Below are positions 874 to 52,252 of a stretch of 64,000 nucleotides of DNA, in pieces (within the stretch, counting starts at the first letter, position 1; every line of letters begins with the position of its first letter). The position numbers and the translations under genes were made by a program. The DNA is from Acheta domesticus (lineage: Eukaryota > Arthropoda > Insecta > Orthoptera > Gryllidae), in NCBI GenBank assembly GCA_031308135.1, contig JAHLJT010009436.1, positions 139,956,303 to 140,020,302 of the forward strand, in the 5' to 3' direction. A model generated the notes under the pieces. The model made no database searches, had not been told where the DNA came from, and worked only from the letters and a program-made list of their open reading frames with translations.

Positions 874-3800
874 CAGTGGCGTGCATTCAACCCCAGCAAC
901 CCCAGCACTGCTGGGGTAAGCAATAATGAGAATTAAATGAATCTTGAGAACAATGTACCCTATGTCATGTGATCAAAATATTGCACCCACTGTATACTCT
1001 ACTGCGATCTTTCGGTCGGCCCATTGCTCTTCCTCAAGAGCGTTGTAAGGGCCCTCTCGGCTCTGCCCCAGCTCTGTCATCGTCGCTGGGAAAGACTGCT
1101 GCGCGCGCATCTACTTCACTGGGCCCGGGGCACGCGACGGGCAGGGGGGAACCGTGCCGATACTATGCTCCTGTTCAGCTAGCTGGGGATTGATGACGTT
1201 TCTCCCCTTCCCTTTGCTTCGTGGCCAGGCGTCTCCTGGCGAACGTGATTGCAGTACTCCCCGCTAGAGGGCAGATGAGAGCAACCCAGTCACATTACTG
1301 CCAGTGCTACCACGAAGCAAAATTATTTTAAATGACATATTTCGTTAATATAAATTACCGTACCCTTTGTCGAGAAGTTTGTAACTTATAAAATTATTAT
1401 AGAGCATATATTTCTCTCTTGCGTTAATAACAGTGAACAAAAATTTAAGTAGAGATTTTATTAATATTTCTGAGTAAGGTAGTTCTTACTCACGTGATCA
1501 AAACCCAAAAATCCCCGAATTTTTGAGTAGCCCAGGTTACTCTTCTTAGAGAATCAGTGTGCGTGGCAGAGCAGTGTGTGACGTAGTGGTGTTCCATTGC
1601 AGTGACGTATTGTCGTGTTTTCTCGTATTTCGTGAAGATTTGTAGTAATTACGCTCTGTATTAATACGTGATTTGTGAAATCTAACAGGTATTCTGGAAC
1701 TATTGTGTGTAGTATGTCTTCCAGTGAGTGTGTAATTGATGATATTTTGAGGAGACCTTTTTCAACGAGGCAGTTCCATGAGAAGAAGCAGGTGATTGAA
1801 AACGGTAGGCCAACACCAGCCTTAGCACAATTACAGCAGATAACAAAAAAATTTACGAGACATTTCACTTGTTCTGCCTACGAAAAATATCAATGGCTAG
1901 CTGGCAGTGAAAGACTGAATTGTTTGTTTTGTTGGTCTTGTTTGCTCTTTGGTCAAGATCAGAATACCTCATGGACAAAATCGGGATATAAAATTTAGGA
2001 AGTTTCACAAAAGCAGCAACTGCACACGAACTATCAGTAGGACACATCAGAGCTTCGTATCTTTTGGCATCATTCGGGCATGCTCGTATTGAAACGCAAT
2101 TGGACCAGCAACTTCAAACTGAAATATCTCTTCACCATAAGAAAGTGCGACAAAATCGCGAGCTTCTCAAAAGGTTCATAAACGCCGTATGTTTCTTAAG
2201 TAAACAGGAATTAGCATTCAGAGGACATGACGAATCTAGATTGTCACTTAATCGTGGTAATTATGTGGAACTACTGCACTACACAGCAGAGTATGATTCT
2301 CTCCTGAGGACTCATTTGGAAACTTCGACAGTATTCCGCGGGTTATCCAATCGGATACAAAATGATCTCATAGATTCCATATCTCATTCACTGTTGCAAG
2401 AAATTAAATCTGAAATAGCGAATGCTAATTTTGTCTCTGTGTTGGTAGATGAAACAACAGATGTTTCCAACACTGCTCAGTTTTCAATTGTGTTCCGATA
2501 TGTTTACGGTGGTGAAACAAAAGAACGGTTTATCGGATTTCGTGATGTAAGTGCAAACCGAAGCGCCGCGGCGATAGCAGAGCTTATAAGAGAGTACTTG
2601 ACAGAATTTGACTGTAATAACAAGCTTATAGCTCAGTCGTACGACGGCGCAGCGTCCATGTCTGGAAATGTGAACGGCGTCCAGGCCCTCATAAAACAGA
2701 CTCATCCTCAGGCAGTTTATATTCATTGCTACGCGCATGTATTGAATTTAGTACTTTCACGTAGTGTTAATAACATCAGAGAATGTAAAATTTTCTTTAG
2801 TAATTTGAGTGGTATTGCTGCCTTCTTCTCGCGGTCACCAAAACGAGCAAAATTTCTTGACAATTTTCTACAAAGACGATTGCCATCTGTTTGCCCAACT
2901 AGATGGAACTATACAGAGCGACTTGTCAACACTGTGTATATGCACAGAAATGATCTTCAGAATGTATTCACTACTATGCTCAATAACCAAGACGAGGTTG
3001 AAAATGATATATTGGCTCCTGTTAGTGGTTATTTGTCAATTTTATCTGACTTTTTGTTTTGCTTTTTGTTGAGAACTTTTGATAAAATCTTTTCGTTCTC
3101 GGGAATATTGTACAACATTCTCCAAACAAAAGCACATGACATCGGTTACTGTAGACAAAAAATTAAAGAAACACGAAGAAATATAGCTGATATGAGAAGC
3201 GAGTATGAAAGTGTACATTCTGAAACCATAAGAGAAGTTGGCGAAGAATCTAGGAGAGTCAATGTAAATTACAAGCGACTATATTACGAAATCTTTGATA
3301 ATGTGGACAAGCAGTTGGAGATTAGATTTCAAGACTATGGAAATTTGCAGTTCTTGGAATTAATATCAAAAGATATTAGCAAGTATAACACATACAGGAA
3401 ACAATTTCCCCAGAAGGAATTTTCTAGCTTGCTTGGAGCTTATGGGAGTAATTTTGATGAAGTAAGATTACGCAATGAACTTACTGTATTTTATTGCACC
3501 GAAGAGTTTCAAGAGAAAAGCCCATATGAACTACTGAAAACTTTGAATTCCATGTCGCTATCCACATGCTTTCCACAACTTACACGCCTTGTATCACTGA
3601 TTTGTTCTATTCCTGTATCAACAGCATCTGTAGAAAGATCGTTTTCGGCTCTGAAAAGAATAAAAACTTATGCTCGAAACAGAACAAGTGAAAAGAGATT
3701 AACCAATTTAGCCTTACTCTCTATCGAAACATCTCTACTGGAGGACATAAGACACACACATTCATTTTTCGAAAAAACTATGCAGCATTTTGCTAGTCAT

Positions 3801-4084
3801 GAAAGAAGAATAGATTTTACATTTCGTTGATTGCAGCATCATTTGCAGAAAGCAGACTTCATTTTCCTGTTCTGTAAGTTACGATAATTTACTTTTTCTT
3901 GCATGAAAATATATCTTGTGTAAGAGTGATATATTGAATGTTGGAATTTTTTATTTTTTAAATATTGTTTCACGGTTGTGTTAAAAAATCTCCTGTTGCG
4001 CGACTACTTTGTATGCGTTTGAGTGGGGGAATCTGGTTGGCCGCGAGCAGCTGGGGTATACCAAGTAATCACCGCACGCCCCTG
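874..4084 (+). mobile_element. Complete hAT-superfamily DNA transposon
   Basis: The element is 3211 bp. Its left end reads CAGTGGCGTGC and its right end is the inverse of CAGGGGCGTGC, giving 10 of 11 matching terminal bases. It is bounded by perfect 8-bp duplications (GTAGAATG). Inside is one + strand transposase gene, frameshifted once, with about 840 bp of 5' and 250 bp of 3' non-coding sequence. Undamaged termini and target duplications suggest a fairly recent insertion. The frameshift means this copy probably cannot make its own transposase, although it could still be mobilised in trans. Confidence 0.9.
1714..3830 (+). pseudogene. hAT transposase, ZMYM1/DUF4371 type, single frameshift
   Basis: The likely start is the ATG at 1714 (MSSSECVIDDILRRPFS). 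The N-terminal part carries a TTF-type zinc finger pattern (C-x2-C-x2-C in LNCLFCWSC) and runs to a stop at 1996. The rest continues in another frame from about 1992 (NLGSFTKAATAHELS) without a stop to 3830, so one base appears to be missing in the A-run near 1990. Expected hAT landmarks are present: VLVDETTD and YDGAASMSG with the two catalytic Asp, the conserved CPTRW block, and the C-terminal STASVERSFSALKRIKT dimerisation segment with the catalytic Glu. The second part is about 610 codons with no further break. Such proteins cut and paste elements with matching termini. A sequencing error at the A-run could also explain the break. Confidence 0.88.
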
Positions 4085-11699: not shown

Positions 11700-14600
11700 A
11701 TGGGTGCGGTGCGAGCCGCGCTGCAGCTGCCGCTGCTGCTGTGCGCGCTGCTGGCGCTGGCGGCGGCGGCGCCCACGGAGGCCCCCGCGGCGGGGGCGTG
11801 CCCGCGCGGGTGCCGGTGCTTCGGGGCCGCGGACGGGGCCGCCGCCAACTGCAGCTCGGCCGCCGCCGCGCTCGCCCTGGGCGCGCGCGTGCGCGTGCTG
11901 CGCCTGTCGCGCTACGACGACCACCTCAGCGTCAAGGAGGGCGCCTTCCGCGCGCTCTCCGGCCTGCGCGAGCTGCACCTCGACCACCTCGGCCTCGTCA
12001 AGGTAATACTCTTACGACCCTTCGACGCGGATACTGCGATTTTCGTAACTTTGTCCCTGACAGGAATCAGCTGTTTCGCTGCCATCCAATCGGGAGCTTA
12101 TATTTTGCGATAGTGATGTCACTATGGTGACGTTTAAGCTCCCGATTGGATGAAACCGTGAACAGCTGACTTCTGTCAGGGACAAAGTTACGATAATCGC
12201 AGTATAAACACACGTCCCTTTGACGTCGGTTCTCCGAGTTAAACAGGGAGGCCACTTGCTTGGAAACAGGGAAAATTCGGGAATTTCATTGCTCTGGAAA
12301 AGTTGAAGAAAAATCAGAGAATTTTTTGAAGAATCGATGGAAGTCAGAAGTTTTTCAGATGTTTTCAAAACTAGATTTTATTCCTCAAAAATTGCTATTT
12401 TATTTTTGCTCAATTTTTATTTGTTAATATTTATTTGTTATTTTTTATTAGAATGTTTGATGTTCAATTTTTGTTGATTAGTTCTTTCTCGTCTCAAAAT
12501 TAGAGAACTGACTAATTCGCTTTAATATAGTCACCAACCAACTGGCAAATTAAAATGACAAATTAAAGTGACAAATTAAAAATCGTATCAGGAGAAAATG
12601 TTTCAAAACCTATTTGAAAACCAGAAATGAAGAAATTTTTGTGAGGAAATTAGTGGCCCCCTTTAAATAACTTTTATTTGGCGTACGATCAGCTGCGATG
12701 CAGGTATCCAATGGGGAGCATCAACACCATAACTTAAGTCGTAAGAAAGCTTCCGTTTGGATATCCTCGTCCCAGCTCATCGTTTGTCAAAAGTCATTCT
12801 AATTTAATCGAAGTATAATCGCGAGTCTCCGAACGTAAGACGTCAAGGGAGTTTGCTGTGCGCGGCCGGATGCCATGTTCAGAGAGCAGTCGAAGCAGGG
12901 CATTAAGATTGCTATCTGCTAGCGCGGTGAAGCTGAGTTTCCTCCCCTTCACCTATATCGGAATACTACTTCACCAGTCCTAGGCTAAGAATCATTATCA
13001 TGAGCTGTTTTGAATTATGCAAAATGACACGTGTTTAACGTGATAACGTAGATAATCGCATTAAGAACTTTGATATTTTTTACATTTCAACATCACACAT
13101 GGTAATTGTTTTAGTTCTTTCAGTCATTTAAATCGCGATAATTTGTGAATAATTTAAAATGTTATTAAACTATTTGTTGTTAATAATGAAGTAAATAAGT
13201 TGGACACAATTATACGATTGTAAAAATTGCATTTGATCTTTCAAAATATTAGTAAGTGCACATTCCCTTTTGGAGTATCATTGTCGTCCCGTCTCCAGGT
13301 AAATTTTGTAAATTTTCCTTTATTACCTTATGCTCTAAAAGGTAGTTTTATAGTCTATGCCCCTCACCCATCTTGCAGCTTTTGCAGATGTTCCTTTTTA
13401 CTTTCAATCGGTGACATCGTTTACATTCCATTCTAAATTGTAATTTATTTTTCGAGCTCTTGTATCTATCGTAAATCTTCGTGAATTAATTACAATAGGG
13501 GCTATCTGCAATCGGTTGTCTTTAATACATGCATTCTCACACTTGTACATTATATATATTTTTCTAAAATCTGGAAAATAACTCACCCGTCTGAACCAAT
13601 CGTTTGACTACTAAGTGTATCTTTCCATTCGTTTTATCTTCACATTTCATGTTATCATTTCATTATCATTACATTATTAATACAATCACAACCAATGTAA
13701 CAAGGATTGCCCCTCTTGTAGGTGTACCCGGGCGCGTTCCGCGGCCTGAACCAGCTGGAGACGCTGGACCTGTCGCACAACGCGCTGAGCGCCGGGGACG
13801 AGGTGTCGCGCGCGCTGCGCGACCTGCCCGCGCTGCGCAGGCTCTCGCTGCGCGGCAACAACTTCGGCGCCGCCCACGGCGTCGCGCCGGCGCTCGCCTC
13901 CCGCACGCTCAAGTTCGTCGACCTCGGCCGCTGCAAGCTGCGCGCCCTCCCGCCCACCGTCTTCGCCGGCCTCTCGCACGTCCGCCACATCGTGCTCGAC
14001 GGCAACTTCATTCGCGAGTTCGTCGCGGCTGCCTTCCCGAGAAGCGTCGTCTCCCTCGACTTGAGCCACAACGACATCGACCGCGTCTCCAGGGCCGAAC
14101 TCAACAAGCTCGAGAACGTGGATTCGATAGAGTTGGCGGAGAATCCCATCCACTGTACCTGCGAGCTTCTGAAGATATCGTTTGAATACAATATGAACAA
14201 AGCTGTCGTGTGCGCCTATCCCAAGCAACTCATGGGGAAAGATTTGCTGAAAATTAAGAAACATCAAGTATGTGCGGGTCATAAGAAAGCTAAGCGAGAG
14301 GCAGGGAATGAGTTGGACGATGAAGCACTGTCTGCTGAAGAACTCGACAACGGTGACGATCTGGCAACCAACCACCAAGAAGACGATCCAGAGGACGCCG
14401 TTGATGCCGTAAACAGTCCCGTAGAAGAAGCGGACGCAGAGGACACCGAAGGTGCCGCCAACGCTGCTGATACTGAGGAAGACGAGGAAGAAACACCGGA
14501 ACAGACTCCCGACAAACTTGACAGTGAGCCGAAAGGACCCGCTGTCGAAAACGCTGGTGATGAGGCAGAAGAAACGGAACCTGAGGCTCCAGCTGTGTCC

Positions 14601-17600
14601 GCAGAAGAAAAGAATGAACCTGATGAGGAGCCTGAAGATATTGATGGTGTTGCCGAGGAAGGGAAGTCTTCAAAAGAGACTGAAAAAGTTGCGTTGGAAG
14701 ACGAAGTTAACGAAGAGGAAGGAGAAGTGGCAGATCACGCTGCTTCGCATGCCAAATCGGACACGCCACCTGATGAAGCCGACGACACTGAAGAGGAGCC
14801 GGAGGAAGCCCCTGAATCACCAGCAGATGGGGAAGGGGCAGAACCTGTGGATGATAATGATGAAAATGTCGAAAATACCCACGTTGGTGCAGCCATACGA
14901 AATGATGACGATGCGGAGAACGAGGACGCTGAAGATGAGAACGCTCAAGAAACGTCAAATGTGGACCCTGTCGTAGCTTCCGACGAAGAAGAAAATGCTG
15001 ACGAACAGGAGACTCCTGTGGAGAACGATGACGAAGTTGCTGAGGAAGATCCTCCAGAAAGTCTGCCAGCTTCTGCTTACAATCACTTGAAAACGGAAGA
15101 CGAAAACGTTAGTCAAGATAAAGCGACTGATGGTGAAAATAAGGCCGATAACAATGAAGAAAACGCGCCTGAAAAGTTAAATTCAGATGAAGACTACTCT
15201 GCCCCAGAAGTTGCTGATCCTCCGCTGGAGGAACCAACAGATTCACTTGAGGATGCAGACTACTCCGCGCCAGAAGTTGCTGATCCTCCCAAGAAGGAAG
15301 TGGGTAACGATGATGATGCAGAACCCGGTAAAGAAACTGCTGAAGAAGAAAATGATCAGGAACACTCTATGCCCGAAGTAGCTGAGAAACCAGACAGCAT
15401 TCCCGATGACGATGGTGAAGAAACTAATACTGGAAACTCACAAGGAGCTCCGGAGGAAACCGAACCCAAAACAGAGGATGCAGACAATGCTGACGGAGAT
15501 GGCCTGGACGACGACAAGACAGAGAACGAGGACGAAGATGCCCTCAACACAGTGAACAATGAGGATGACACTCTCCCAGGTGTTGCTCTTTCAAGGACTA
15601 ACGATAACGAAGGAGAAGCTGACAATACCGGACACGGGCCAGGCAATGAAGAAACCGATGATGAAGTGGAAAACGTGCCGAGCAATGATAATGTTGTGCA
15701 TTCAAGCGGCGTGGGGGCTCGAGTGGAATCAGGAGATCCCAAAGTGGGTGACGCAGACGATGACGATGATGAAGATGGTAACAAAAATATTCTCGCCGCT
15801 GGTGTTAACATAGAGGATGAAAATAAAGAAGAAACTGGAGACCACGACTCTAAACCGGATAATGAAGATGACACAGATGTCGATGGCAACACCGGTGTCG
15901 ATACTGTCGAAAACGAAGCGCAAGAAAATCCTGAAGTAGAAAATGAAGATGCGAAGAACAGCGACGTTCTAGTAGCTGCCGGTTTGGACAATGATTCTGA
16001 AGAAGAGGAAGGCGATGAGAAAGTGGAAGAAAGTGATAATTTGGGAACTGGACTTGTGGGTGCTGCAGATGATACTAAAAACACAGAGGATGAGAAAACA
16101 CTTGAAGACGAGTTGGAAGAAGACCGAGCTCATGCGACGTTAGGTCACGAAGATATTGATGAAGAAATCAGTGGTGCTGATCACACAAACGATGCTGTTA
16201 AGAATGAACCAAGCGAAGAGAAACTTGAAGACGAACATGAAGGGCCTATTGTAATTCCGCCGCTGACCAGCGACAAAGAAAATGAAGATGATAATGTTGA
16301 CACTGAAGATGATGGTTTGGAAAGAGAAAATGGTATATTAGATGAAAATGAAAATAAGGATACAGGCCACGCACAGATTGAAGGCACTGAAGATACAGAT
16401 GGCGAAGAACCAAAAGAATACGAGGAAGTGAATGAAGGAGATGAGCAAGAAAGAAAATCGCCGGGAGGCGCTCTGTCAGTTGCGCCCACTGATAATGAGG
16501 ACAGCGAGGAAGAAGGCAGTGGGAATGTGTTGGACGCCTTGGATGATACTGCAGTTGACACTCCCAAAAACGAAGACGACTGGGCTGAAGACACCGAAAC
16601 TGACAACGAAAATGAGAATGAAGCAGTTCCACCTTTGGGCAATGCCGACTCGAAGGAGGTGGCAGGCACTTCCGGTGAGGGAGTGGACGAGGCCGCGGAG
16701 GTTGATCCAAGCGAAGAGCCGCCACGTGTCATCGCCGCCGCCGACAACGCCACAGACGAAGAAGAAGAACAACCCGGTTCGGGTGCCGGGGCCGTGGTCC
16801 CTGCTGGCGTGCCACTCGATCGAGATGAAGAGCCCGCTTCCAACGAAGAAGACGAAGGCTCTGGTCAGGAGTTACCGTTTGGTCACGTGCCTGCCATCAC
16901 CGGAGACGATACTGACAAGGCAGACGACGACGACGAAGAAGGCTCTGGCAAGGGGGTGTTCATTCCGGTCGTCCCTGGCCGGGACCGTGTAGAAGACACC
17001 GACGTGGAGGTCGACGAGGGTATGGACGACTTGGACGATACCGATAAGGCAACTACAGTAGCTCCCGTGGTTGCGCCGGAGGACGAAATCATTCCCAGAA
17101 TCCACATGCCCCCGCAGGCCGCGCCTCCGAGCGTGCGGGATGAAGAACCGCTTCCACCTGTCGAGGAAGAGCCTGTTGAGGAAGAGCCCTCGGAGGAACA
17201 AGAGATACCCGAGGAAGGAGGAGCGCCCGTCCCCGACGAAGAACCGGAGGACGTTCAGGGACGTGACAGAAGCGATTCGGGTCGCGCGCTGCTTCCTATA
17301 CACCCTGCCAGCGCCGACGACGTGGACGATGCTGACGCAGAAGCTCCCGATCAGACCGCCAACGCCGGAGAAGACGGAGATCTGAACGTGGACGTCGCAC
17401 CCGGAATGGACGACGCCAAGAAGGGCAACATAGCTGAAGCCGACGGGGATCGTACGGACGGTTCTGAAGCTCTGAACAAGGAAGCTGCTATGTCCATGAA
17501 CACCATCGCATCGTACGTGGTGCTGGGCGCAATTATGGTGATCGTCGTCTTCCTTCTGGGCTACGCCGTGTGCCGCAGCCGTCGTCAGAAGAGCCCCAGC

Positions 17601-18233
17601 GCCCGCGATAAGGACCCGGAAAACCCCGACCGTGAGCTCCACGAAGTGAACAAGCCCCTGATCAACAACCACCACCCGGCTGGTCCGGAGAAGCAGCCGC
17701 TGGACGAGACGCAGCAGCCGCTCATGACCAAAGAGCAAGAGGCGTCGCTCACCGTCGACCCGGAGAAGAAGCCCCTGACGGAGGACACGACGGACGCGGC
17801 CAACCACAAGCCCAAGCAGAACGGCAGCGTGCCCGAGGTGGTGGTGGTGGAGAAGCAGGCGGCCCCGGTGGCCAACGGCAAGGCGGCCTCCCCGGCGGCG
17901 GAGCGCGCCCCGTCGCCCGCCGCCCCGGCGCCCGCGCCGTCGCCCACGGCCGCCGCCCCGCCGCCCACCACGCCCATGGCGCCCGCCGCCGCCGCCCCCG
18001 CCTCGCCCGCCGCCGCCGCGGACGGCCACGCCGCCGCCAACGGCAACGCCCTGCCGCTCGCCAACGGAGGCTCCGTGTCGCCCGGCGCCGCCCCGCCGCC
18101 GGCCTCGTCGCCCGCCGCACCGCCCGTGTCGCCGGGCGCCGTGCGCGTGGTCGCCAAGGAGTTGCCCGACTCGGTGGCCAAGCGGCCGGTCATCATCATG
18201 AACCGCGGGGCGGATCCGCAGCAGCAGGTGTGA
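11700..18233 (+). CDS. wdp: Windpipe-like LRR transmembrane proteoglycan (two coding exons)
   Basis: Coding exons are 11700-12002 and 13722-18233. Both splice sites are canonical and in phase 0 (AAG|GTAATA; TTGTAG|GTG), giving about 1604 residues. A hydrophobic signal peptide spans residues 1-24. An LRRNT cysteine cluster (C34, C38, C40, C51) and about seven leucine-rich repeats follow (for example LETLDLSHNALS, SVVSLDLSHNDI). The LRRCT has C246, C248, C265 and C285. Residues 290-1357 form an Asp/Glu-rich stalk, with Ser-Gly dipeptides in acidic or Gly context at 1034, 1085, 1121, 1148, 1176 and 1287. A transmembrane helix (about 1366-1386) precedes CRSRR and a Pro/Ala-rich tail carrying four PL motifs. 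Drosophila windpipe is a chondroitin sulfate proteoglycan with the same plan (LRRs, GAG sites, one TM) that restrains growth signalling, but it is much shorter. Orthology is inferred from architecture; another LRR membrane protein is possible. Exon 1 and both ends of exon 2 are far more GC-rich than the acidic part. Confidence 0.72.
12034..12202. mobile_element. MITE family A, copy 2, in intron 1
   Basis: It is 169 bp like copy 1, with the same termini (CTGCGATTTTCG... and inverse) and flanking TA at 12032-12033 and 12203-12204. The core is related but in a partly different arrangement (GTGATGTCACTATGGTGACG). The transcribed hairpin would sit very near the 5' splice site of the windpipe-like gene. 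Confidence 0.75.
12660..12816. mobile_element. Degenerate relative of the MITE family, in intron 1
   Basis: It ends AATTTAATCGAAGTA like the copy at 28360-28501. It retains GATCAGCTG near one end and CAGCTC near the other, and a core resembling TCCAATGGGGAGC and the inverse. The left boundary is uncertain. It is more diverged than the other members. Confidence 0.5.
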
Positions 18234-39815: not shown

Positions 39816-39824
39816 CTATGAATA
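39816..39824. repeat. Foldback target-site duplication, left copy
   Basis: CTATGAATA directly before the terminus AGGTGCGTGAAG, repeated exactly at 52244-52252. Confidence 0.85.
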
Positions 39825-42695
39825 AGGTGCGTGAAGTTGGCACCCCCACTTTGTCGAAAATTCAAATGACATACGCCAAAGTTTTGCCCAAGTTTTGCCC
39901 AAGTTTGCCCAACCAATAAAAAGTTTTGCCCAAGTCACACAACGCCAGAAATCGAAAATCAAATTTTGGACTTTAAAGTGACTAGCACCCCCACTTTGTC
40001 GAAAATTAAAATGACATACGCCAAAGTTTTGCCCAAGTTTTGCCCAAGTTTGCCCAACCTTTAAAAAGTTTTGCCCAAGTCAAATAAAGCCGCAAATCGC
40101 AAATCAAAATTTCGGACTTAAACGTCCTGGAGCACTCCCACAAAGCTATTTCCAACTTTCGAACATGCCATCGGTTTGCCCACGATGAGACCAAGTACAT
40201 CGAGTCATAAAACAGTTTTGCCCAAGCCACACAACGCCGGAAATAGCGAAAATCGCAAATCAAATTTTCGACTTTAAAGTGACTAGCACCCCCTCTTGCG
40301 AATTTCAAAGTTTTGAACGAACCATCGTGTAGAAGAGTTTTGCCCATTTTTGAATCAATTTGTAAAAAGTTTTGCCCAAGTCAAACAAAGTCGTAAATTG
40401 CAAATCAAAATTTCGGACTTAACACTCCTGAAGCTCCCCCACAAGGCAATTTCGAAATTACGAACACATCACGGTTTTGCAGACGACGAACCCAAGCAAA
40501 TCGAGCCATAAAAAAGTTTTGCCCACCTCACAAAAAGTCGGAAATCGCAAATAAAATTTTCGGACTTGAACTTCCTAGAGCTCTCCCCAAAAAAATTTCA
40601 AAATTTCGAACATACCATGGTATCGCTCACGATTCATTCAAAGTCATTGAGCCTTCAATAAGATTTGCCCAAGTCACACCACGCCAAAAATCGCGAAAAT
40701 AGCAAATCATATTTTGGACTTCAAAGCGACTTGCACCCCAATTCCGAATTTCAAAGGGGTGAAGGTACCATCGTGTAGAAGAGTTTTGTACATTTACGAA
40801 TCAATTTGTAAAAGGTTTTGTCCAAGTCACAGAACGCGAGAAATCGCAAATCAATATTTTGGACTTAAACCCACTGTAGCTTTCCCACAACTGTTTTTCG
40901 AAATTTTGAACATACCACCGGTTTGCCCATCATGAGCCCATCTTCATCGAGCCAAAAACAAGTTTTGCCCAAGTCACAGAAAGCCAGGAATCGCAAATCA
41001 AAATTTCGGACTAAAACCTCCTATAGGTCTCCCAAACCGAAAATTCAAAATTTCGAACATCGTTTGCCCACGATCGGCCCAAGTCCATCGAGCCTTAAAA
41101 AAGTTTTGCCCTAGTCACACAACGCCAGCAATCGAAAATCAAGTTTTGGACTTTAAAGTGACTAGCACCCCCACTTTGTCGAAAATTAAAATGACATACG
41201 CCAAAGTTTTGCCCAAGTTTTGCCCAGGTTTGCCCAACCTTTAAAAAGTTTTGCCCAAGTCACACAACGCCGGAAATCGAAAATCAAATTTTGGACTTTA
41301 AAGCGACCAACACCCCCACTTGCGATTTTCAAGTTTTTGAACATACCATCCTGTAGAAGAGTTAACCCCATTTTTAAATCAATTTGTAAAAAGTTTTGCC
41401 CAAGTCACAGAACGCGAGAAATCGCAAATCAAGATTTTGGACTTAAACCCACTGTAGCTTTCCCACAACTGTTTTTCGAAATTTAAAACATACCACCGGT
41501 TTGCCCATCATGAGCCTATCTTCATCGAGCCATAAACAAGTTTTGCCCAAGTCACAGAAAGTCAGGAATCGCAAATCAAAATTTCGGACTAAAACCTCCT
41601 ATAGGTCTCCCAAAAAGAAAATTCAAAATTTCGAACATGTCATCGTTTTGCCCACGATCGGCCCAAGTCCATCGAGCCTTAAAAAAGTTTTGCCCAAGTC
41701 ACACAACGCCGGAAATCGAAAATCAAATTTTGGACTTTAAAGTGACTAGCACCCCCACTTTGTCGAAAATTAAAATAACATACGCCAAAGTTTTGCCCAA
41801 GTTTTGCCCAGGTTTGCCCAACCTTTAAAAAGTTTTGCCCAAGTCACACAACGCCGGAAATCGAAAATCAAATTTTGGACTTTAAAGTGACTAGCACCCC
41901 CACTTTGTCGAAAATTAAAATGACATACGCCAAAGTTTTGCCCAAGTTTTGCCCAGGTTTGCCCAACCTTTAAAAAGTTTTGCCCAAGTCACACAACGCC
42001 GGAAATCGAAAATCAAATTTTGGACTTTAAAGCGACCAACACCCCCACTTGCGATTTTCAAGGTTTTGAACATACCATCCTGTAGAAGAGTTTACCCCAT
42101 TTTTAAATCAATTTGTAAAAAGTTTTGCCCGAGTCAAATAAAACCGCAAATCGCAAATCAAAATTTCGGTCTAAAACCTCCTGTACGTCTCCCGAACTAA
42201 AATTTCAAAATTTCGAACATGTCATCGTTTTGTCCATGATCAGCCCAAGTTCATCGAGCCTTAAAAAAGTTTTGCCCAAGTCAGGCAACGCCGGAAATCC
42301 AAAATCAAATGTTGGACTTTAAATTGACTAGCACCCCCACATTGTCGAAAATGCAAATGACGTACGCCAAAGTTTTGCTCATGTTTTGCCCAAGTTTGCC
42401 CAACCTTTAAAAAGTTTTGCCCAAGTCAAATAAAGCCGCAAATCGCAAATCAAAATTTTTGACTTAAACTTTCTGTAGCTCTCCCTCAAGTGTTTTTCGA
42501 AATTTGGGACGTAGCATCGTTTTGCCCACGATGAAACAAAGTTTATTGAGCTAGAAAAACTATTTGCCCACGTCACAAAAGCCGGAAATCGGAAATCAAA
42601 CTTTCAGTATCTAACTTCCTTTAGCTTTGCCCCAATAATTTCGACATTTTGAACACACCATCTTTTAACCAAATCTTGCCGAAATTTACCCAATT
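39825..42695 (+). repeat. Left inverted arm of the foldback element
   Basis: About 20 monomers of 135-146 bp. They share TTTTGCCCAAGTCA, AATCGCAAATCAAA-like or AATCGAAAATCAAA-like and GGACTTTAAAGTGACTAGC blocks. At 41700-41990 two monomers repeat at exactly 145 bp. A longer period of about 585 bp is visible between 41115 and 41700. Identity to the right arm is highest in the outer 1.3 kb. Short open frames recur because the monomer lacks stops in some frames. They are not genes. Confidence 0.85.
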
Positions 42696-42997
42696 TTAAA
42701 GGAACATATTTTATTAAGCGGAAACTTCATGTTGATTGTTGTTTTGAAAAATGAAAAAAAATGTATTTGCAGGACGACGCAAAAAAATATGTACTCTATT
42801 ATAGGAGAAATTTTAAACAGAAAATTTGGAATTATTTTTCAAGATAAGTTGATATGTCGCGGCTTTATTGACAGTACAACGATTACTCAAAATATCCATT
42901 GGATATCAGAGACTCCCGAATTCCGTGACTAACAATTTTGGAGAAAACCATCTGATCGGTTTAAGTGCTAGCGTACTACACAGACGTACTACATATA

Positions 42998-43344
42998 CAG
43001 GGTGAGTCACGTAACTTTAGCACCTCCTGTAACTTTTGAACGGTTGACGTTATTGCAATGCAGTTTTCACAGAAGTGCATGAGGGAAAGGGGCTAATTGA
43101 TACGTGCATTAATTTCTATTTTATCACTTGTATTTTACGAGATTTTTTAGGTAACTTTGTTTTTTCAAATGGAACTATACATATTTTTTCAGTCTACCAT
43201 GACGAGCGTAAAAAGTGATAAAAGAGAAATCAATACACATATCAATTAGCCCCATTCCCTCATTCACTTCCGTGAAAACTGCATTGCAATATCTTCAACC
43301 ATTCAAAAGTTAGAGGAGGTGCTAAAGTTACGTGACTCACCCTG
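42998..43344. mobile_element. Palindromic DNA transposon with about 145-bp inverted repeats
   Basis: CAGGGTGAGTCACGTAACTT at the left is mirrored at the right, and similarity continues through ATTGCAATGCAGTTTTCAC and GGGGCTAATTGATA to about 145 bp. TA flanks both ends (42996-42997, 43345-43346). The centre is only about 60 bp and non-coding. Target preference suggests Tc1/mariner-type mobilisation. Confidence 0.7.
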
Positions 43345-43346
43345 TA

Positions 43347-43460
43347 TATGGACGGACTGACCGACGGATGGACAGACGGACCACTAGATGGTGCGATAGA
43401 CGGTCCGACGGACGGAAAGATGGATGGTCGGGCAGATGGACGGATAGACAGCGGACGCGT
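43347..43460 (+). repeat. Degenerate (GACG)n/(GATG)n simple repeat
   Basis: Runs of GGACGGACTGACC, GACGGATGGACAG and similar tetranucleotides start immediately at the end of the palindromic element. Confidence 0.75.
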
Positions 43461-44189
43461 ACGGAAAGTTTTCGCGATATTGGTTTTTTGGTATCAAGGA
43501 ACAACAAAATATGGATTCTGACATTATAACAAGTTGTAGCCAGTAAATTACTATAATTAAAAACAAGATTCATCCATTTTTTCAATACCAGGACCCCGCC
43601 AGTAATTAATAATAAAATAAGAAATAAATTGATAATAAAATATTTGTAATCATTTCCATCGTTTTTCGTTTACTTTCTTGCACATTTACTTATGTATACG
43701 ATGTAAAGCAAATAGTATAGACGTCTTAATGCGTTCAAAATTAGCAATATACATAATTTAGAGGAAGTTATGTGATGCCGGAGAAAATATATTTTCAAAT
43801 TCCTACAGAACAACATGTTTCGGAGTCTCCTGATCCCGTTAATGTCGCTTTATTGAAATCATTTTTCCGTCCATCACTCTGCCAGGGTTATGGTACGTCC
43901 CTTCGTCAGTGAACAACACTAACCTAAAGAATTCGTCGGATTTTTCCGAAATAAATACTCAAAAGTCAATTTGGTCCGACGCGAATCCATCCAATTTTTA
44001 AATTAATTAATTGTATTTTGATGGTACTTCACATTGATCCTCTGGGATGATCTTCTTAATAAAATGATATGTCATTTTCATGTTTTATTTTGTTTAATCA
44101 GCATTTGGACAAATGTAATATTTAACGAAAATCTCACATGTAGTTAATATTTACAATAAGGACTAATAATTAAATTTGTTCAAAGAATT

Positions 44190-44272
44190 GGTCGGCCCGA
44201 CCGGGATTCGAACCCGGGTCTTCTGGTTTAAGCTCAGTTGCGCTGATCACTAAGTTACCGAGTGAACCAACC
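44190..44272 (-). ncRNA. tRNA-like sequence flanked by inverted repeats
   Basis: On the - strand a perfect T-arm (CCGGG, loop TTCGAAT, CCCGG) and an A-box-like TAACTTAGTGATCAGCGC sit at tRNA spacing, with a GGTTGG/CCGACC outer pairing. The D and anticodon arms are irregular, so a functional tRNA is unlikely and a SINE head more likely. TGTTCAAAGGGTTGG and its near-perfect inverse (44177-44191, 44267-44281) flank the unit. Confidence 0.45.
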
Positions 44273-44323
44273 CTTTGAACAGTGTTCATGGGCACACTAT
44301 CGCACCTTGTATGTATAAAGATG

Positions 44324-44327
<4 letters not shown>

Positions 44328-44378
<51 letters not shown>
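44328..44378. repeat. (TA)n microsatellite
   Basis: About 25 uninterrupted TA units. Confidence 0.95.
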
Positions 44379-44382
<4 letters not shown>

Positions 44383-44669
44383 ATAAGGTCGTTTTTTATA
44401 GATGATTTTATTAGCAAGTGCAGGAACTTCAAATGATTCTCTATGAAGTGCCTTGGGAACTCAAAACTTTAATGGGATAATTAACTAAAACTTTTGCGTT
44501 TTCAGAAACGCTCATACGTCGTTCCCTTAAACGCCTACAAGTTTTTCACCGAAAATTAACTCATAAAACCAGATTATACCCCAGTAGAATATTAATTTGT
44601 AAGTCATATTTCAATTATACTGTTCAGGAGCCGTTTGTATATCCAGTTGCTACATATAGCAAACAACTC

Positions 44670-44900
44670 TAACATAGCCAGAATCCATTTTTTGTGAGTT
44701 CTTGACACCGAAAAACCAATTGACGGCAAAAAGTCCGCCTGTCCTTCCCTGTCTGTTCGTGCCCCCGTGAACACCACTAGCGCCTAAGCCATAGGTTCGA
44801 TTTTTTCCGAAATGGAGATTCCCCGATCAATCTGGCTGAACTCGAAGCTTTGCGATTTTGAAAAGCATTCTTCAAAAGTTGTGGTATACTTTACTTGATG
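44670..44900. repeat. Dispersed repeat shared with 30230-30440
   Basis: CAGAATCCA, TTGACACCGAAAAA, a CTAGCGCC block and ATACTTTACTTGATG-like sequence follow the same order as around 30240-30430. The copies are strongly diverged and no frame survives. Confidence 0.5.
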
Positions 44901-45091
44901 CTCCATGGATATTTTCTAAATTTTCTTCAAAACAGCTTCAATTTATTTTCTTTAAATGCTTTATCTTCAGCCACTGTTTAGTTTGCACGCGAGATTAAGT
45001 TTCTGTAACGCTTTGTTCGATGTAAAGTGTAGTGTCGTAAGTTTTACTTTGCGCGCCTGCTGGTGTCATAAAGTTGTCAAATTTTGTGAAA

Positions 45092-45255
45092 AATGTCCAG
45101 GGAAAGTATTTATGTGACTGAAATTCAGCGTATTCATTAAGAACTGTCGGATGATCAACATGATCATGAATTGGATAGAGATAGTGACCTGAGTGTTGAC
45201 AATATAGAACAACATCAGCATGATAGTGCATCGGAACAAGAGCTTTCATTTATTT
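45092..45255 (+). pseudogene. piggyBac-like transposase N-terminal remnant
   Basis: From the ATG at 45092 the peptide begins MSRESIYVTEIQRIH, then a stop, then ELSDDQHDHELDRDSDLSVD. This is the acidic N-terminal pattern of piggyBac-type transposases before the catalytic domain. The rest is missing. GGGTTAA at about 45467, preceded by GCGCCCGCTCAA, fits a piggyBac right end at a TTAA target. The left end was not found. It is probably an internally deleted element. Confidence 0.45.
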
Positions 45256-46619
45256 TTCATTGTTTCTATATTTTCATTGTGTCTCTTTAATCCTTAAATA
45301 ACATATGTAATCTATAGAATATATGTTCTATATCATTCAAAGATATTACACAGCGAGATAAGATTGCGTAGTTCTACAATTTCTTGATTTTATTCTAGAG
45401 TCAACGAATGTCGTAACATTTACGACATGCGCCTGCTGGTGAGAAACTTTTGCGCGCGCCCGCTCAAGGGTTAAACATGGCTGAAATTAATTTTGGAAAG
45501 AAAAAAATTATTTTATTATATAAAATAATTTTTCACAATGTAAAATGCATGTGTGTGCACCCCAGCAATAAAAATTACAGAAACTGTAAAAAAGGACTAA
45601 ACAGAACAAAGCACATTATAATGCAAACCTTGCCTATCTGAAGCTAATTAAAATAATTAAATTATCTAAATTATAACTGAAACAAATTATACCCTACATA
45701 TAAGAAACAAAAGCCTATTGCGTATTATACAATAAATAATCAGCTAATTAACATTGTAGTGAGATATATCGACACTAAATACCAAATGGTGTTGCAGACG
45801 AACTGATACACCTGCCTGAGATGGATTTGGAAAATTGAACACTATATCGTCTTTATCTATACCATACATTGTCATTTACCATGACAAACCTTTCGCTCGT
45901 GGTATTTAATTTCTTTAAATTTTTTTCCTAAAAAATACTTCCCATTTTAACTCCAAAAACCTCTGCAATATGTTTAACAGTTTTTTACTGCACAGTTTTG
46001 TGAGAATGAAATCACCTTGGCTTCTAGATATCTTCTACAAATTTCTAAAATAATAAAAAATAATCAATATATAACCTGAAGGCGAGTCACCGTAAGATCA
46101 GTTGTACTTTGGCCAAGGGTACAACAGTACATGTTGGTAAAAGGCACAACATACCCTCTCATAAGAACGTATCATCAGAAGAAACATATTATAAGAAGGA
46201 CAAACAATTGTTTAGGGAAATAAATTATAAAAAATAAGTAATTAATTTTCCAACTGGTTTTACTTGGTTGTGCCCATTACTACATTATATTACACGTATA
46301 ATGACTTCTGTACGCGTAACTGCATTCATCTTTTAAACAATAGCAGTAAAAAATACTGTTGAAGTAAACTAGTGCTGCTACAGAATGGCACAGACTTTCC
46401 CGTATTAGTTTTCTATTTCCTTGGGTCTTAGATATTCGGAATTGCCACAAAACCCTTTCTTGCCAGCTATGATCTATTACCACCAAAAGTACATTTGTTT
46501 GTCATTTTCTTAATTTTTCGGTTTCCTATTGGTAGAACGGAAATATTAATTTTAGAATATTAAAGAACACAAAAACCTAGTCCTAAATGGCAATTTTCTT
46601 TTAAAAATTATATACCGTT

Positions 46620-47590
46620 TAAGAGAAAATGGCGTTTTAGCGCTCCTAAAAATGCGAAATTTGAAGCTCATTTTTACAGAATATCTTTGAGTTTTCAAAA
46701 TACTTTATTTGAAGTTATTTGAAGCACTTACACTAACAAATATAATAATGTTTACAAATTGCTAGTAATGTGCATATTAAAGAAGTGAGAGATCTTTCAA
46801 AAAAATTACAATTATGTAATTTTTGAAAAAACAAAAAATAACTCAAAATAAACTTTACGCTATACTAAAGAGTGTAATTCGCACTATCCGTTACAAAAGT
46901 TACAAGAAACAATTTGCAGCCATATATGAGAAAATGGCGTTTGAGCGTTTCTGAAAATGCGAAATTTTGAGCTACTTTTCACTGAAAAAGGTTGTGTTTT
47001 CGAGAAACTTTCCTTGACATTATTTAAAGCACATGTACTCATAAGTATAATAATGTGAACAAATCGCCTCTAACGTAAATATTATCGACGTGAGAAACAT
47101 GTGAAACAATTTACATTTTCGTAATTTTTGAAAAAAACAACCGATACAACAATATGGCTTTTATGTCATCTGATAGAGTACATTTACCATTATCCTTACC
47201 AAAAGTTTGAAGAAAAAATTTGGAGCAGTTTTTGAGAAAATCTTGGTTTTGTAATTTTTTTAAAATTGCACATGTTGCATTCAATATTGCGCGAAAAATA
47301 CTAAAATTTTAAAGAACATTTACATGACCTTAAAGAAAGAACTCACTATGAAGAACAAATTGTATTTGAAGGAAAAATCTCTATCTTCAATTTTGTAGTT
47401 CCAGAAAGACGCCGTAAAAATTTTAAACTTTTACAATTTTCAAAAATTCAGTTATCCGAGAAAATCGGACCTACGCCATGTAAATAAGAGTATTTTACTC
47501 TATTCATACAAGAAATTTAAAGAAAAAATTTGGAGCCGTTTTCGAGAAAATTTTGAAAATTTGAATTTTTGAATTTACAAACCGAAGCGT
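46620..47590. repeat. About 300-bp imperfect tandem repeats
   Basis: GAGAAAATGGCGTTT at about 46625 and 46928 begins two aligned units with conserved TATAATAATGT and TAATTTTTGAAAAAA blocks. Related, more diverged units follow at about 47230 and 47520 (AGAAAAAATTTGGAGC, then GAGAAAAT). A single diverged unit lies at about 29940. Confidence 0.6.
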
Positions 47591-48145
47591 TCATTCATAA
47601 ACGACTTCTTCCAAAGCAGTCATAGGAATGATTATCTATAATACTTAATAATCTGAAGGGAATATTGTGAAACTGAATGGTTTTCGGTAAAATCAGTTAC
47701 ATTTTGCTAAATCAAAGTTTTTCAGGCATAGAAATAAATAAACAAGCTATAGGGTGTTTCGTGTGTGTAGCGTCCCTTACTGTACAATCGGAGAAAAGGT
47801 TCGATTTGGCTCTATTCTTCGCTGCAGTATGAAGCTGTGAGTGAAAACTGAACATGAAATTAATGCATTATTCTTGCCGTTTATTAAATAAATGTAAACC
47901 TGAAATGTTGCTGCCAGGACACTTATTAGTATTCTCAAAAATAAGAAAGCAATACTTCTCCAAAATGAATATTTTTCAATTGATCTGGCCGAGTCCAGAA
48001 CCTGCGATTTTGAGACAAATAATTTGATGGGGATGCTTGATTCGAACTCCACACACATTTTCAGAAAATACAAACAAATTTCTCCAAATGTTTGCATTAT
48101 TTTTTTTCTCAAATGAAGTGAAAAACGGTTGATAAAATCTCAGGT

Positions 48146-51100
48146 CTTATTTCGTTGCGATTCCTGACTTTCTGTGACTTGGGCAAAACATTTTTATGGC
48201 TCGATGTACATGGGCTCATGGTGGGCACACCGGTGGTATGTTCGAAATTTCATAAAACACTTTTGGGAAAGCTACAGAAAGTTTAAGTCCGAAATGTTGA
48301 TTTGCGATTTCTCGCGTTGTGGGACTTGGGCAAAACTGTTTTATGACTCGATGCACTTGGTCTCATCGTGGGCAAAACGATGGCTTGTTCGAAAGTTGGA
48401 AATAGCTTTGTGGGAGAGCTCCAGGACGTTTAAGTCCAAAATTTTGATTTGCGATTTGCGGCTTTATTTGACTTGGGCAAAACTTTTTAAAGGTTGGGCA
48501 AACCTGGGCAAAACTTGGGCAAAACTTTGGCGTATGTCATTTTAATTTTCGACAAAGTGGGGGTGCTAGTCACTTTAAAGTCCAAAATTTGATTTTCGAT
48601 TTCTGGCGTTGTGTGACTTGGGCAAATCTTTTTTAAGGCTCGATGGACTTGGGCCGATCGTGGGCAAAACGATGACATGTTCGAAATTTTGAAATTTTAG
48701 TTTGGGAGACGTACAGGAGGTTTTAGACCGAAATTTTGATTTGCGATTTGCGGTTTTATTTGACTTGGGCAAAACTTTTTACAAATTGATTTAAAAATGG
48801 GGTAAACTCTTCTACAGGATGGTATGTTCAAAAACTTGAAAATCGCAAGTGGGGGTGTTGGTCGCTTTAAAGTCCAAAATTTGATTTTCGATTTCCGGCG
48901 TTGTGTGACTTGGGCAAAACTTTTTAAAGGTTGGGCAAACCTGGGCAAAACTTGGGCAAAACTTTGGCGTATGTCATTTTAATTTTCGACAAAGTGGGGG
49001 TGCTAGTCACTTTAAAGTCCAAAATTTGATTTTCGATTGCTGGCGTTGTGTGACTAGGGCAAAACTTTTTTAAGGCTCGATGGACTTGGGCCGATCGTGG
49101 GCAAAACGATGACATGTTCGAAATTTTGAATTTTCTGTTTGGGAGACCTATAGGAGGTTTTAGTCCGAAATTTTGATTTGCGATTCCTGACTTTCTGTGA
49201 CTTGGGCAAAACTTGTTTATGGCTCGATGAAGATGGGCTCATGATGGGCAAACCGGTGGTATGTTCAAAATTTCGAAAAACAGTTGTGGGAAAGCTACAG
49301 TGGGTTTAAGTCCCAAATCTTGATTTGCGATTTCTCGCGTTCTGTGACTTGGGCAAAACTTTTTACAAATTGATTTAAAAATGGGGTAAACTCTTCTACA
49401 GGATGGTATGTTCAAAAACTTGAAAATCGCAAGTGGGGGTGTTGGTCGCTTTAAAGTCCAAAATTTGATTTTCGATTTCCGGCGTTGTGTGACTTGGGCA
49501 AAACTTTTTAAAGGTTGGGCAAACCTGGGCAAAACTTGGGCAAAACTTTGGCGTATGTCATTTTAATTTTCGACAAAGTGGGGGTGCTAGTCACTTTAAA
49601 GTCCAAAATTTGATTTTCGATTGCTGGCGTTGTGTGACTAGGGCAAAACTTTTTTAAGGCTCGATGGACTTGGGCCGATCGTGGGCAAAACGATGACATG
49701 TTCGAAATTTTGAATTTTCTGTTTGGGAGACCTATAGGAGGTTTTAGTCCGAAATTTTGATTTGCGATTCCTGACTTTTTGTGACTTGGGCAAAACTTGT
49801 TTATGGCTCGATGAAGATGGGCTCATGATGGGCAAACCGGTAGTATGTTCAAAATTTCGAAAAACAGTTGTGGGAAAGCTACAGTGGGTTTAAGTCCAAA
49901 ATCTTGATTTGCGATTTCTCGCCTTCTGTGACTTGGGCAAAACTTTTTACAAATTGATTTAAAAATGGGGTTAACTCTTCTACAGGATGGTATGTTCAAA
50001 AACTTGAAAATCGCAAGTGGGGGTGTTGGTCGCTTTAAAGTCCAAAATTTGATATTCGATTTCCGGCGTTGTGTGACTTGGGCAAAACTATTTTAAAGGT
50101 TGGGCAAACCTGGGCAAAACTTGGGCAAAACTTTGGCGTATGTCATTTTAATTTTCAACAGAGTGGGGGTGCTAGTCACTTTAAAGTCCAAAACTTGATT
50201 TTCGATTTCCGGCGTTGTGTGACTTGGGCAAAACTTTTTAAAGGTTGGGCAAACCTGGGCAAAACTTGGGCAAAACTTTGGCGTATGTTATTTTAATTTT
50301 CGACAAAGTGGGGGTGCTAGTCACTTTAAAGTCCAAAATTTAATTTTCGATTTCCGGCGTTGTGTGACTTGGGCAAAACTTTTTAAAGGTTGGGCAAACC
50401 TGGGCAAAACTTGGGCAAAACTTTGGCGTATGTCATTTTAATTTTCGACAGAGTGGGGGTGCTGGTCACTTTAAAGTCGAAAACTTGATTTTCGATTTCC
50501 AGCGTTGTGTGACTTGGGCAAAACTTTTTAAAGGTTGGGCAAACCTGGGCAAAACTTGGGCAAAACTTTGGCGTATGTCATTTTAATTTTCGACAGAGTG
50601 GGGGTGCTAGTCACTTTAAAGTCCAAAACTTGATTTTCGATTTCCAGCGTTGTGTGACTTGGGCAAAACTTTTTAAAGGTTGGGCAAACCTGGGCAAAAC
50701 TTGGGCAAAACTTTGGCGTATGTCATTTTAATTTTCGACAAAGTGGGGGTGCTAGTCACTTTAAAGTCCAAAATTTAATTTTCGATTTCCGGCGTTGTGT
50801 GACTTGGGCAAAACTTTTTAAAGGTTGGGCAAACCTGGGCAAAACTTGGGCAAAACTTTGGCGTATGTTATTTTAATTTTCGACAAAGTGGGGGTGCTAG
50901 TCACTTTAAAGTCCAAAATTTGATTTTCGATTGCTGGCGTTGTGTGACTTGGGCAAAACTTTTTTAAGGCTCGATGGACTTGGGCCGATTGTGGGCAAAA
51001 CGATGACATGTTCGAAATTTTGAATTTTCTGTTTGGGAGACCTATAGGAGGTTTTAGTCCGAAATTTTGATTTGCGATTCCTGACTTTCTGTGACTTGGG

Positions 51101-52243
51101 CAAAACTTGTTTATGGCTCGATGAAGATGGGCTCATGATGGGCAAACCGGTGGTATGTTCAAAATTTCGAAAAACAGTTGTGGGAAATCTACAGTAGGTT
51201 TAAGTCCAAAATATTGATTTGCGATTTCTCGCGTTCTGTGACTTGGACAAAACCTTTTACAAATTGATTCGTAAATGTACAAAACTCTTCTACACGATGG
51301 TACCTTCACCCCTTTGAAATTCGGAATTGGGGTGCAAGTCGCTTTAAAGTCCAAAATATGATTTGCTATTTTCGCGATTTTTGGCGTGGTGTGACTTGGG
51401 CAAATCTTATTGAAGGCTCAATGACTTTGAATCAATCGTGAGCGATACCATGGTATGTTCGAAATTTTGAAATTTTTTTTGGGAGAGCTCTAGGAAGTTT
51501 AAGTCCGAAAATTTTATTTGCGATTTCCGACTTTTTGTGAGGTGGGCAAAACTTTTTTATGGCTCGATTTGCTTGGGTTCGTCGTCTGCAAAACTGTGAT
51601 GTGTTCGTAATTTCAAAATTGCCTTGTGGGGGAGCTTCAGGAGTGTTAAGTCCGAAATTTTGATTTGCAATTTACGACTTTGTTTGACTTGGGCAAAACT
51701 TTTTACAAATTGATTCAAAAATGGGCAAAACTCTTCTACACGATGGTTTGTTCAAAACTTTGAAATTCGCAAGAGGGGGTGCTAGTCACTTTAAAGTCGA
51801 AAATTTGATTTGCGATTTTCGCTATTTCCGGCGTTGTGTGGTTTGGGCAAAACTGTTTTATGACTCGATGTACTTGGTCTCATCGTGGGCAAACTGATGG
51901 CATGTTCGAAAGTTGGAAATAGCTTTGTGGGAGTGCTCCAGGACGTTTAAGTCCGAAATTTTGATTTGCGATTTGCGGCTTTATTTGACTTGGGCAAAAC
52001 TTTTTAAAGGTTGGGCAAACTTGGGCAAAACTTGGGCAAAACTTTGGCGTGTGTCATTTTAATTTTCGACAAAGTGGGGGTGCTAGTCACTTTAAAGTCC
52101 AAAATTTGATTTTCGATTTCTGGCGTTGTGTGACTTGGGCAAAACTTTTTATTGGTTGGGCAAACTTGGGCAAAACTTGGGCAAAACTTTGGCGTATGCC
52201 ATTTGAATTTTCGACAAAGTGGGGGTGCCAACTTCACGCACCT
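48146..52243 (-). repeat. Right inverted arm of the foldback element
   Basis: About 28 monomers in the orientation opposite to the left arm. Seven successive monomer starts from 50065 to 50936 are spaced 146, 145, 145, 145, 145 and 145 bp. A 584-bp higher-order unit repeats at 49037 and 49621. The outer 1.3 kb parallels the left arm block for block. The extra length of this arm is explained by added 145-bp and 584-bp units. Confidence 0.85.
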
Positions 52244-52252
52244 CTATGAATA
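52244..52252. repeat. Foldback target-site duplication, right copy
   Basis: CTATGAATA, identical to 39816-39824, directly after the terminus CTTCACGCACCT. Confidence 0.85.

Follow-up and report, generated by a model that had tools for sequence, protein, structure and literature searches.

In a 64,000-nt stretch of the Acheta domesticus genome (assembly GCA_031308135.1, contig JAHLJT010009436.1, positions 139,956,303 to 140,020,302 of the forward strand; hereafter the window), we analyzed a 12,419-bp foldback transposon that contains no transposase frame and is likely mobilized in trans by longer relatives, whose predicted DDE-type transposase carries a predicted USP-type C-terminal domain. 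The element, its arms, its 9-bp target-site duplication (TSD), its sibling copies, the empty sites of two siblings, and two longer siblings with a frame-broken gene were all read directly from the sequence.

The element proper occupies positions 39825-52243 of the window, between two copies of the 9-bp direct repeat CTATGAATA (39816-39824 and 52244-52252, + strand), which were identified by direct reading and flank comparison and which the initial annotation, made from the letters of the window, had placed right to the base. It starts at 39825 with AGGTGCGTGAAGTTGGCACCCCC, and the reverse complement of AGGTGCGTGAAGTTGGCACCCCC closes it at 52243. Using Tandem Repeats Finder and BLAST, the left arm (39825-42666, + strand) was resolved as a forward array of a ~145-bp monomer and the right arm (48155-52243, − strand) as an array of the same monomer in reverse, and Tandem Repeats Finder also reported higher-order periods of ~290 and ~437-446 bp. 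The outer parts of the arms, 39825-41060 (+) and 51008-52243 (−), pair inversely over 1,236 nt at 99%. Counts of the motif TTTTGCCC gave 30 for the left arm and, for its complement, 53 for the right arm, with no occurrence in the opposite sense in either (0 and 0), in line with the opposed monomer arrays noticed at the outset. According to the frame list and the interior comparison, neither the interior (42667-48154) nor the element as a whole contained a reading frame of at least 130 codons, and this, together with a deletion-like junction in the interior, agrees with the earlier proposal that the window copy is non-autonomous.

The host assembly (2.33 Gb, 6,511 contigs) was searched with the 23-nt terminus of the element (39825-39847, + strand, on the left; 52221-52243, − strand, on the right), which was found exactly at 112 places (52 forward, 60 reverse), compared with none for the backward pattern. 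Among the 100 listed of these 112 termini, 58 formed 29 facing pairs within 30 kb as judged by eye; these were completed with two pairs on C6162 and the window copy to give 31 pairs, and 25 copies including the window copy were fetched. A perfect 9-bp direct repeat lay directly outside both termini in 22 of the 25. The 22 duplications were all different, none was longer than 9 bp, and they followed no fixed motif, with C or G as the first base in 18 and T as the fourth base in 14. The exceptions were L009, with a 7-bp duplication, and L028 and L038, whose flanks did not match. Copy sizes ranged from 1,166 bp (L022) to 26,350 bp, and four copies (L020, L025, L031, and L036) contained N gaps. 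In the 20 copies whose interiors were compared, large parts were 96-99% alike in most copies with an interior, and only L014 was lower, at ~89%. Further copies with the same termini and 9-bp duplications, which the initial annotation had proposed to look for, are thus present in number, and the family is a real, recently mobile foldback family in which the window copy is ordinary.

Several loci were arranged in more complex ways. L025, L026, and L027 (C5655:38614279-38636731) form a 22-kb composite of two tandem foldback units with one 9-bp duplication around the whole and a 1.1-kb spacer between the units consisting almost entirely of a 1,000-N gap. L028, L029, and L030 (C1707:60850522-60877271) span 26 kb with an interior palindrome of 5.6-kb halves and unmatched flanks, and this locus looks rearranged. 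The idea that the long arms promote rearrangements is hinted at by such odd composites and by the two copies of 25 with unmatched flanks. An inner 554-codon gag-like frame in L034+L035 and a 910-codon non-LTR (long terminal repeat)-like frame in L040+L041, both recognized by eye, probably belong to nested retroelements. L001 (C6162) and L010 (small contig C508) have in common the duplication CAAGGGTTT together with the flank that follows it, and are either alleles or a duplicated locus.

To look for empty sites, the flanks of the 22 copies were joined and used in a single search, in which 40 of the 6,155 candidates were scored, so that misses mean little. Empty sites were read for L022 and L017, with 391 bp aligned to the joined flanks at 98% and the 9 bp present once. 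That of L022 lies ~11.6 kb off on the same contig and is a duplicated neighbor, while L017 sits on a 34-kb contig and its empty-site partner on a large contig, which would fit an allele. L010 is inserted in a repeat, and one other copy of this repeat that was read crosses the junction at 92%. A related site of L012 was not counted as a clean empty site, its target being itself a palindrome and the alignment only piecewise. The concern of the initial annotation that there might be neither a second copy nor an empty site is answered by the many copies and the two empty sites.

The window interior was then set against L031, a 23-kb copy with the duplication GAATAGTAG, and matched it at 98% on either side of a 7.9-kb stretch present only in L031, the junction lying at 44949-44963 of the window. 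This junction was found in eight of the 25 copies (the window copy, L023, L025 (twice), L034, L036, L038, L040, and L042), 94-100% alike over 135 bp. Since the same junction occurs in all eight, they likely derive from one deletion event, and we infer a deletion rather than an insertion in L031. The 7.9-kb stretch contains two long minus-strand frames of 288 and 359 codons. A second gene-bearing copy, on C3525, is 21.2 kb long and is bounded by 21 of the 23 terminal bases at its left end, an exact right end, and 8 of 9 duplicated bases; its gene matched that of L031 at 98% in protein and at 97.9-99.4% in the DNA compared. Five other loci (C6096:92.4 Mb, C1707:62.8 Mb, C4318, C4617, and C2935:66.4 Mb) contained pieces of the gene with 57-98% protein identity. 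By comparison of positions only, the first four lie ~4 to 25 kb from an exact family terminus, and among the termini listed there was no exact one near the C2935 piece. At C6096:92351511-92443637, facing termini stand 92 kb apart with several transposase-gene pieces between them, some of them open.

Comparison with L031 also showed a nested insert in the window interior (42998-43344), missing from L031, which is a near-perfect palindrome resembling a miniature inverted-repeat transposable element (MITE), with a fold z-score of -22 and the ends TACAGGGTGAGTCACGTAA. At 44190-44280 of the interior, a tRNA-like B-box sequence (GGGATTCGAACCCGGG) is perhaps the head of a short interspersed nuclear element; ARAGORN found no tRNA there, and Rfam and tRNA scans of the window gave no match.

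The predicted enzyme was searched twice against 5.8 billion proteins, with 5 and 27 matches that amount to 30 proteins, and the only one with a named organism was from Chilo suppressalis (P0017). In the 30-row alignment, three D residues were each conserved in 30 of 30 rows, an H two residues on (D-x2-H) in 29, a W in 28, and an E in 27 of 28. As judged by eye, the broken gene copy of the family in L044 has kept IDATG, DFS, RVDIAH, and the E of GCEGYF. A first structure model from 5 sequences was unusable (predicted local distance difference test, pLDDT, 43); a second, of P0002 with 30 sequences, reached a pLDDT of 79.6 and a predicted template modeling score of 0.51. Its order was three strands with D350 in the first, a helix, a short strand followed by D419, helices, a strand, D463-x2-H466, and a late helix with E635. 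Combining the alignment with the P0002 model, D, D, D-x2-H, and E fall in the strand order of RNase H, and we take the conserved motif set with D-x2-H to be a signature of hAT, MULE, and P enzymes and others. The core of the enzyme is accordingly modeled, as a prediction, as a DDE-type transposase with the strand and helix order of RNase H. A relative on C392 (L045) has an unbroken frame of 1,082 amino acids from the first Met.

Pfam scans covered 14 of the 31 homologues (P0001-P0008, P0011, P0012, P0015, P0017, P0018, and P0021, with cut-offs of E up to 1 for six and 0.1 for eight) and two pieces of L044. The precomputed Pfam domains of P0017, PF26216 and PF26217, were not reproduced by the scan at E 0.1, and the L045 frame gave nothing at E 1.

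In a fold search, the USP domain filled the matches listed; no transposase stood among the 50 listed, and the search was uninformative for the DDE part. The C-terminal part has a Cys box, a His box, paired CxxC motifs, and a predicted USP fold, as in USP-type peptidases (C19/C98). Among the rows of the 30-row alignment with a residue at the position, the Cys was present in 21 of 21 and the His in 17 of 18, and by eye the paired CxxC was seen in most covering rows. The prediction for this domain is thus the fold of a ubiquitin/SUMO protease of the USP type. A literature search, blind to Repbase and most subscription papers, turned up no paper recognized as describing the fusion of a transposase with a USP domain. 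Relatives ~30% identical at C3525:40579353, C4002:40035, and C2357:78025779, with open frames of ~1,050 codons and one stop in the third, are other families of the same enzyme in the genome. Among viral contigs, the 30-sequence profile gave 37 pattern matches, none of which was confirmed. The best viral fold match was BFVD O92526, an uncharacterized bracovirus protein (Bracoviriform inaniti; E 2.2e-10, 623 columns, low TM-scores), a hint of a relative in a wasp virus.

The first kilobase of the two arms was compared in 20 of 24 pairs, four pairs being dropped as out of register. The two arms of an element were on average 99.26% alike, compared with 98.14% when right arms were randomly dealt, and none of 10,000 shuffles reached the observed value. 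Between elements, identity was about equal for left-left (97.9%), right-right (98.2%), and left-right (98.1%) comparisons. Using all 24 pairs, the own partner was the best match of 47 for 12 left arms. The arms of the window copy were 98.9% alike, and 5 of 46 other arms were closer than the own partner. Between elements, bases 1-400 were 98.8-99.0% alike and bases 701-1000 were 97.0-97.3% alike, a gradient expected if the termini are bound, with selection by the exact 23-mer adding to the high similarity of bases 1-400.

Several observations weigh against trans-mobilization by this enzyme, or narrow it. An intact transposase of the family itself was not seen: the gene copies in L031 and on C3525 are both out of frame, at different places, and the 359-codon frame of L031 contains a 100-N gap. 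The unbroken L045 frame belongs only to a relative, with 39% identity over the tested piece; the termini of L045 were not readable, and its flank contains a palindromic repeat common in the genome, with no terminus recognized. There was no Pfam transposase match in any protein scanned, and the RNase H reading draws on conserved residues and the strand and helix order of the model, not on a fold match. The initial annotation had suggested looking for an autonomous relative with a MULE-type transposase; longer relatives with a transposase-like, frame-broken gene do exist, and the MULE type is unproven, no Pfam MULE model having matched. It had likewise suggested looking for an empty site of the window copy, and none was found in the same assembly at up to 3 mismatches in 36 nt, those read being of siblings. 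By eye, 42 of the 100 listed termini had no exact partner within 30 kb, and picking pairs by exact termini tilted the sample toward young, complete copies. Finally, variants private to one element occurred 68 times in both arms and 109 times in one arm (1 and 10, respectively, in the window copy). Since the arms of an element are closer than randomly dealt arms, yet one-arm private variants outnumber two-arm ones, homogenization of the arms within a copy is partial or occasional. Either gene conversion or hairpin templating would account for it, and the likeness may owe something to an assembly in which one arm was collapsed onto the other.

The incomplete homogenization and the broken genes slightly lowered our confidence in trans-mobilization by the family's enzyme and slightly raised that in the strongest alternative, in which an unrelated transposase, for example of hAT or P type, moves the element and the gene in L031 and on C3525 is captured cargo. 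Both family gene copies are broken while the termini are near-identical and young-looking, and the window has a hAT-like open reading frame at 2064-3830. This alternative is nevertheless unlikely, as four other loci have gene pieces within ~4 to 25 kb of an exact terminus, between 27 and 30 alignment rows conserve the DDE-type residues, and hAT duplications are 8 bp long, compared with 9 bp in this family. A second alternative is that recombination spread the arms as satellite DNA and that the transposon structure came secondarily; the ~145-bp arrays have higher-order periods, and the available parts of two papers tie such arms to satellites (PMC4079207; PMC10218199), but it is improbable given that 22 of 25 copies have discrete termini with 9-bp duplications and that a transposase-like gene lies inside two copies. 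An assembly or chimeric-read artefact, to which the unmatched flanks of L028 and L038 and the N gaps in four copies might point, is largely refuted and deserves very little credence, since 22 perfect, different duplications outside the same termini and two empty sites show that the inverted arms are neither chance nor a local assembly fold.

FB and FB-NOF elements of Drosophila have foldback tandem-repeat arms and 9-bp duplications. The cricket family shares both, along with a long internal gene, a likeness of architecture; with its long, tandem-repeat inverted arms and 9-bp TSDs, it belongs to the FB class in the structural sense, as first suggested. The remaining comparisons follow those portions of the cited sources that were available. 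NOF is 4,347 bp long with a 308-bp terminal inverted repeat (TIR; PMC10299278), in contrast to the kilobase arms of the cricket family. In Rehavkus-1_TC of Tribolium, which is 9.5 kb long, the inverted termini contain satellite monomers of 164 bp (PMC10218199). Rehavkus is described in Repbase only; it occurs in insects and annelids, makes 9-bp duplications, and has a PHD finger (PMC6446971). By description rather than by Repbase sequences, the cricket family resembles it in the 9-bp TSD and the satellite inverted termini of a ~10-kb transposon, with monomers of ~145 bp instead of 164 bp. However, the Rehavkus transposase is reported to contain a PHD finger, for which no model matched in the proteins scanned here, and the portions of these two papers do not mention a USP domain.

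Tetris of D. virilis is a non-autonomous foldback element with 8-10 bp duplications, tandem repeats in its arms, and no known transposase (PMC4079207), whereas the cricket family has a candidate in its longer siblings. The Phantom-type Tm1 of Meloidogyne has foldback-like TIRs, 8-10 bp duplications (mostly 9) in 45 of 53, and both coding and non-coding copies (PMC3169594), but its transposase has FLYWCH and MULE Pfam domains. Galileo, of the P superfamily, is similar in its foldback-like long TIRs with internal repeats (PMC4079207, in part) and differs in its THAP domain and P-type transposase. Pfam models of MULE, PHD, FLYWCH, and THAP had no match in the 14 scanned homologues, and a remote MULE relation is possible. 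The 9-bp duplications lie within the 8-11 bp range of MULE/Mutator elements (PMC6446971), while the arms exceed the longest TIR (1,193 bp) in a 2026 survey of 322 arthropod MULEs, whose longest transposase had 1,136 amino acids (PMC13359780). The family works like Rehavkus, Tetris, and Tm1, but was filed neither as Rehavkus nor as a MULE, since the scan of 14 of the 31 homologues matched neither a PHD nor a MULE model. On anatomy, a MITE was set aside as the element is too long, although L022 has only 1,166 bp; a Helitron or Polinton was set aside for its unfitting termini and duplication, and a retroelement because the gag-like and non-LTR frames of L034 and L040 look like nested inserts.

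Outside the foldback element, the hAT-like frame at 2064-3830 (+ strand, 588 amino acids) matched Pfam DUF4371 (E 2.2e-25) and the hAT dimerization domain (E 2.1e-14). A 1,503-codon frame at 13722-18233 (+ strand) resembles a host gene; it starts with leucine-rich repeats and has a very long stretch rich in Glu/Asp.

In the mechanism that we propose, the enzyme would bind the ends of the element, where many binding sites are probably provided by the repeated monomer, and would join both ends before inserting them with a 9-bp stagger. The likeness of the two arms may be maintained by gene conversion, or one arm may serve as template for the other via a hairpin or cruciform. In the least certain step, the USP domain might free the transposase or host silencing factors of ubiquitin or SUMO.

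According to the available part of a 2022 review, how Drosophila NOF-FB moves is "not currently known" (PMC8834629). Here, one genome holds near-identical scarred copies, empty sites, gene-bearing longer copies, and an unbroken relative of the gene, so that the way in which arms, enzyme, and 9-bp insertion are connected is testable. The arm data provide a clear case of concerted evolution within single elements. What surprises in the family is its predicted enzyme; what is useful is that all parts occur in one genome. We suggest only tentatively that this is the first cut-and-paste lineage seen with a transposase fused to a USP/USPL1-type isopeptidase, in which jumping would be coupled to the stripping of ubiquitin or SUMO from the transpososome or host silencing proteins and the satellite arms would be rewritten from one another, giving each copy two near-identical ends. 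A transposase with a built-in USP-like domain, if true, would tie transposition directly to the ubiquitin/SUMO system.
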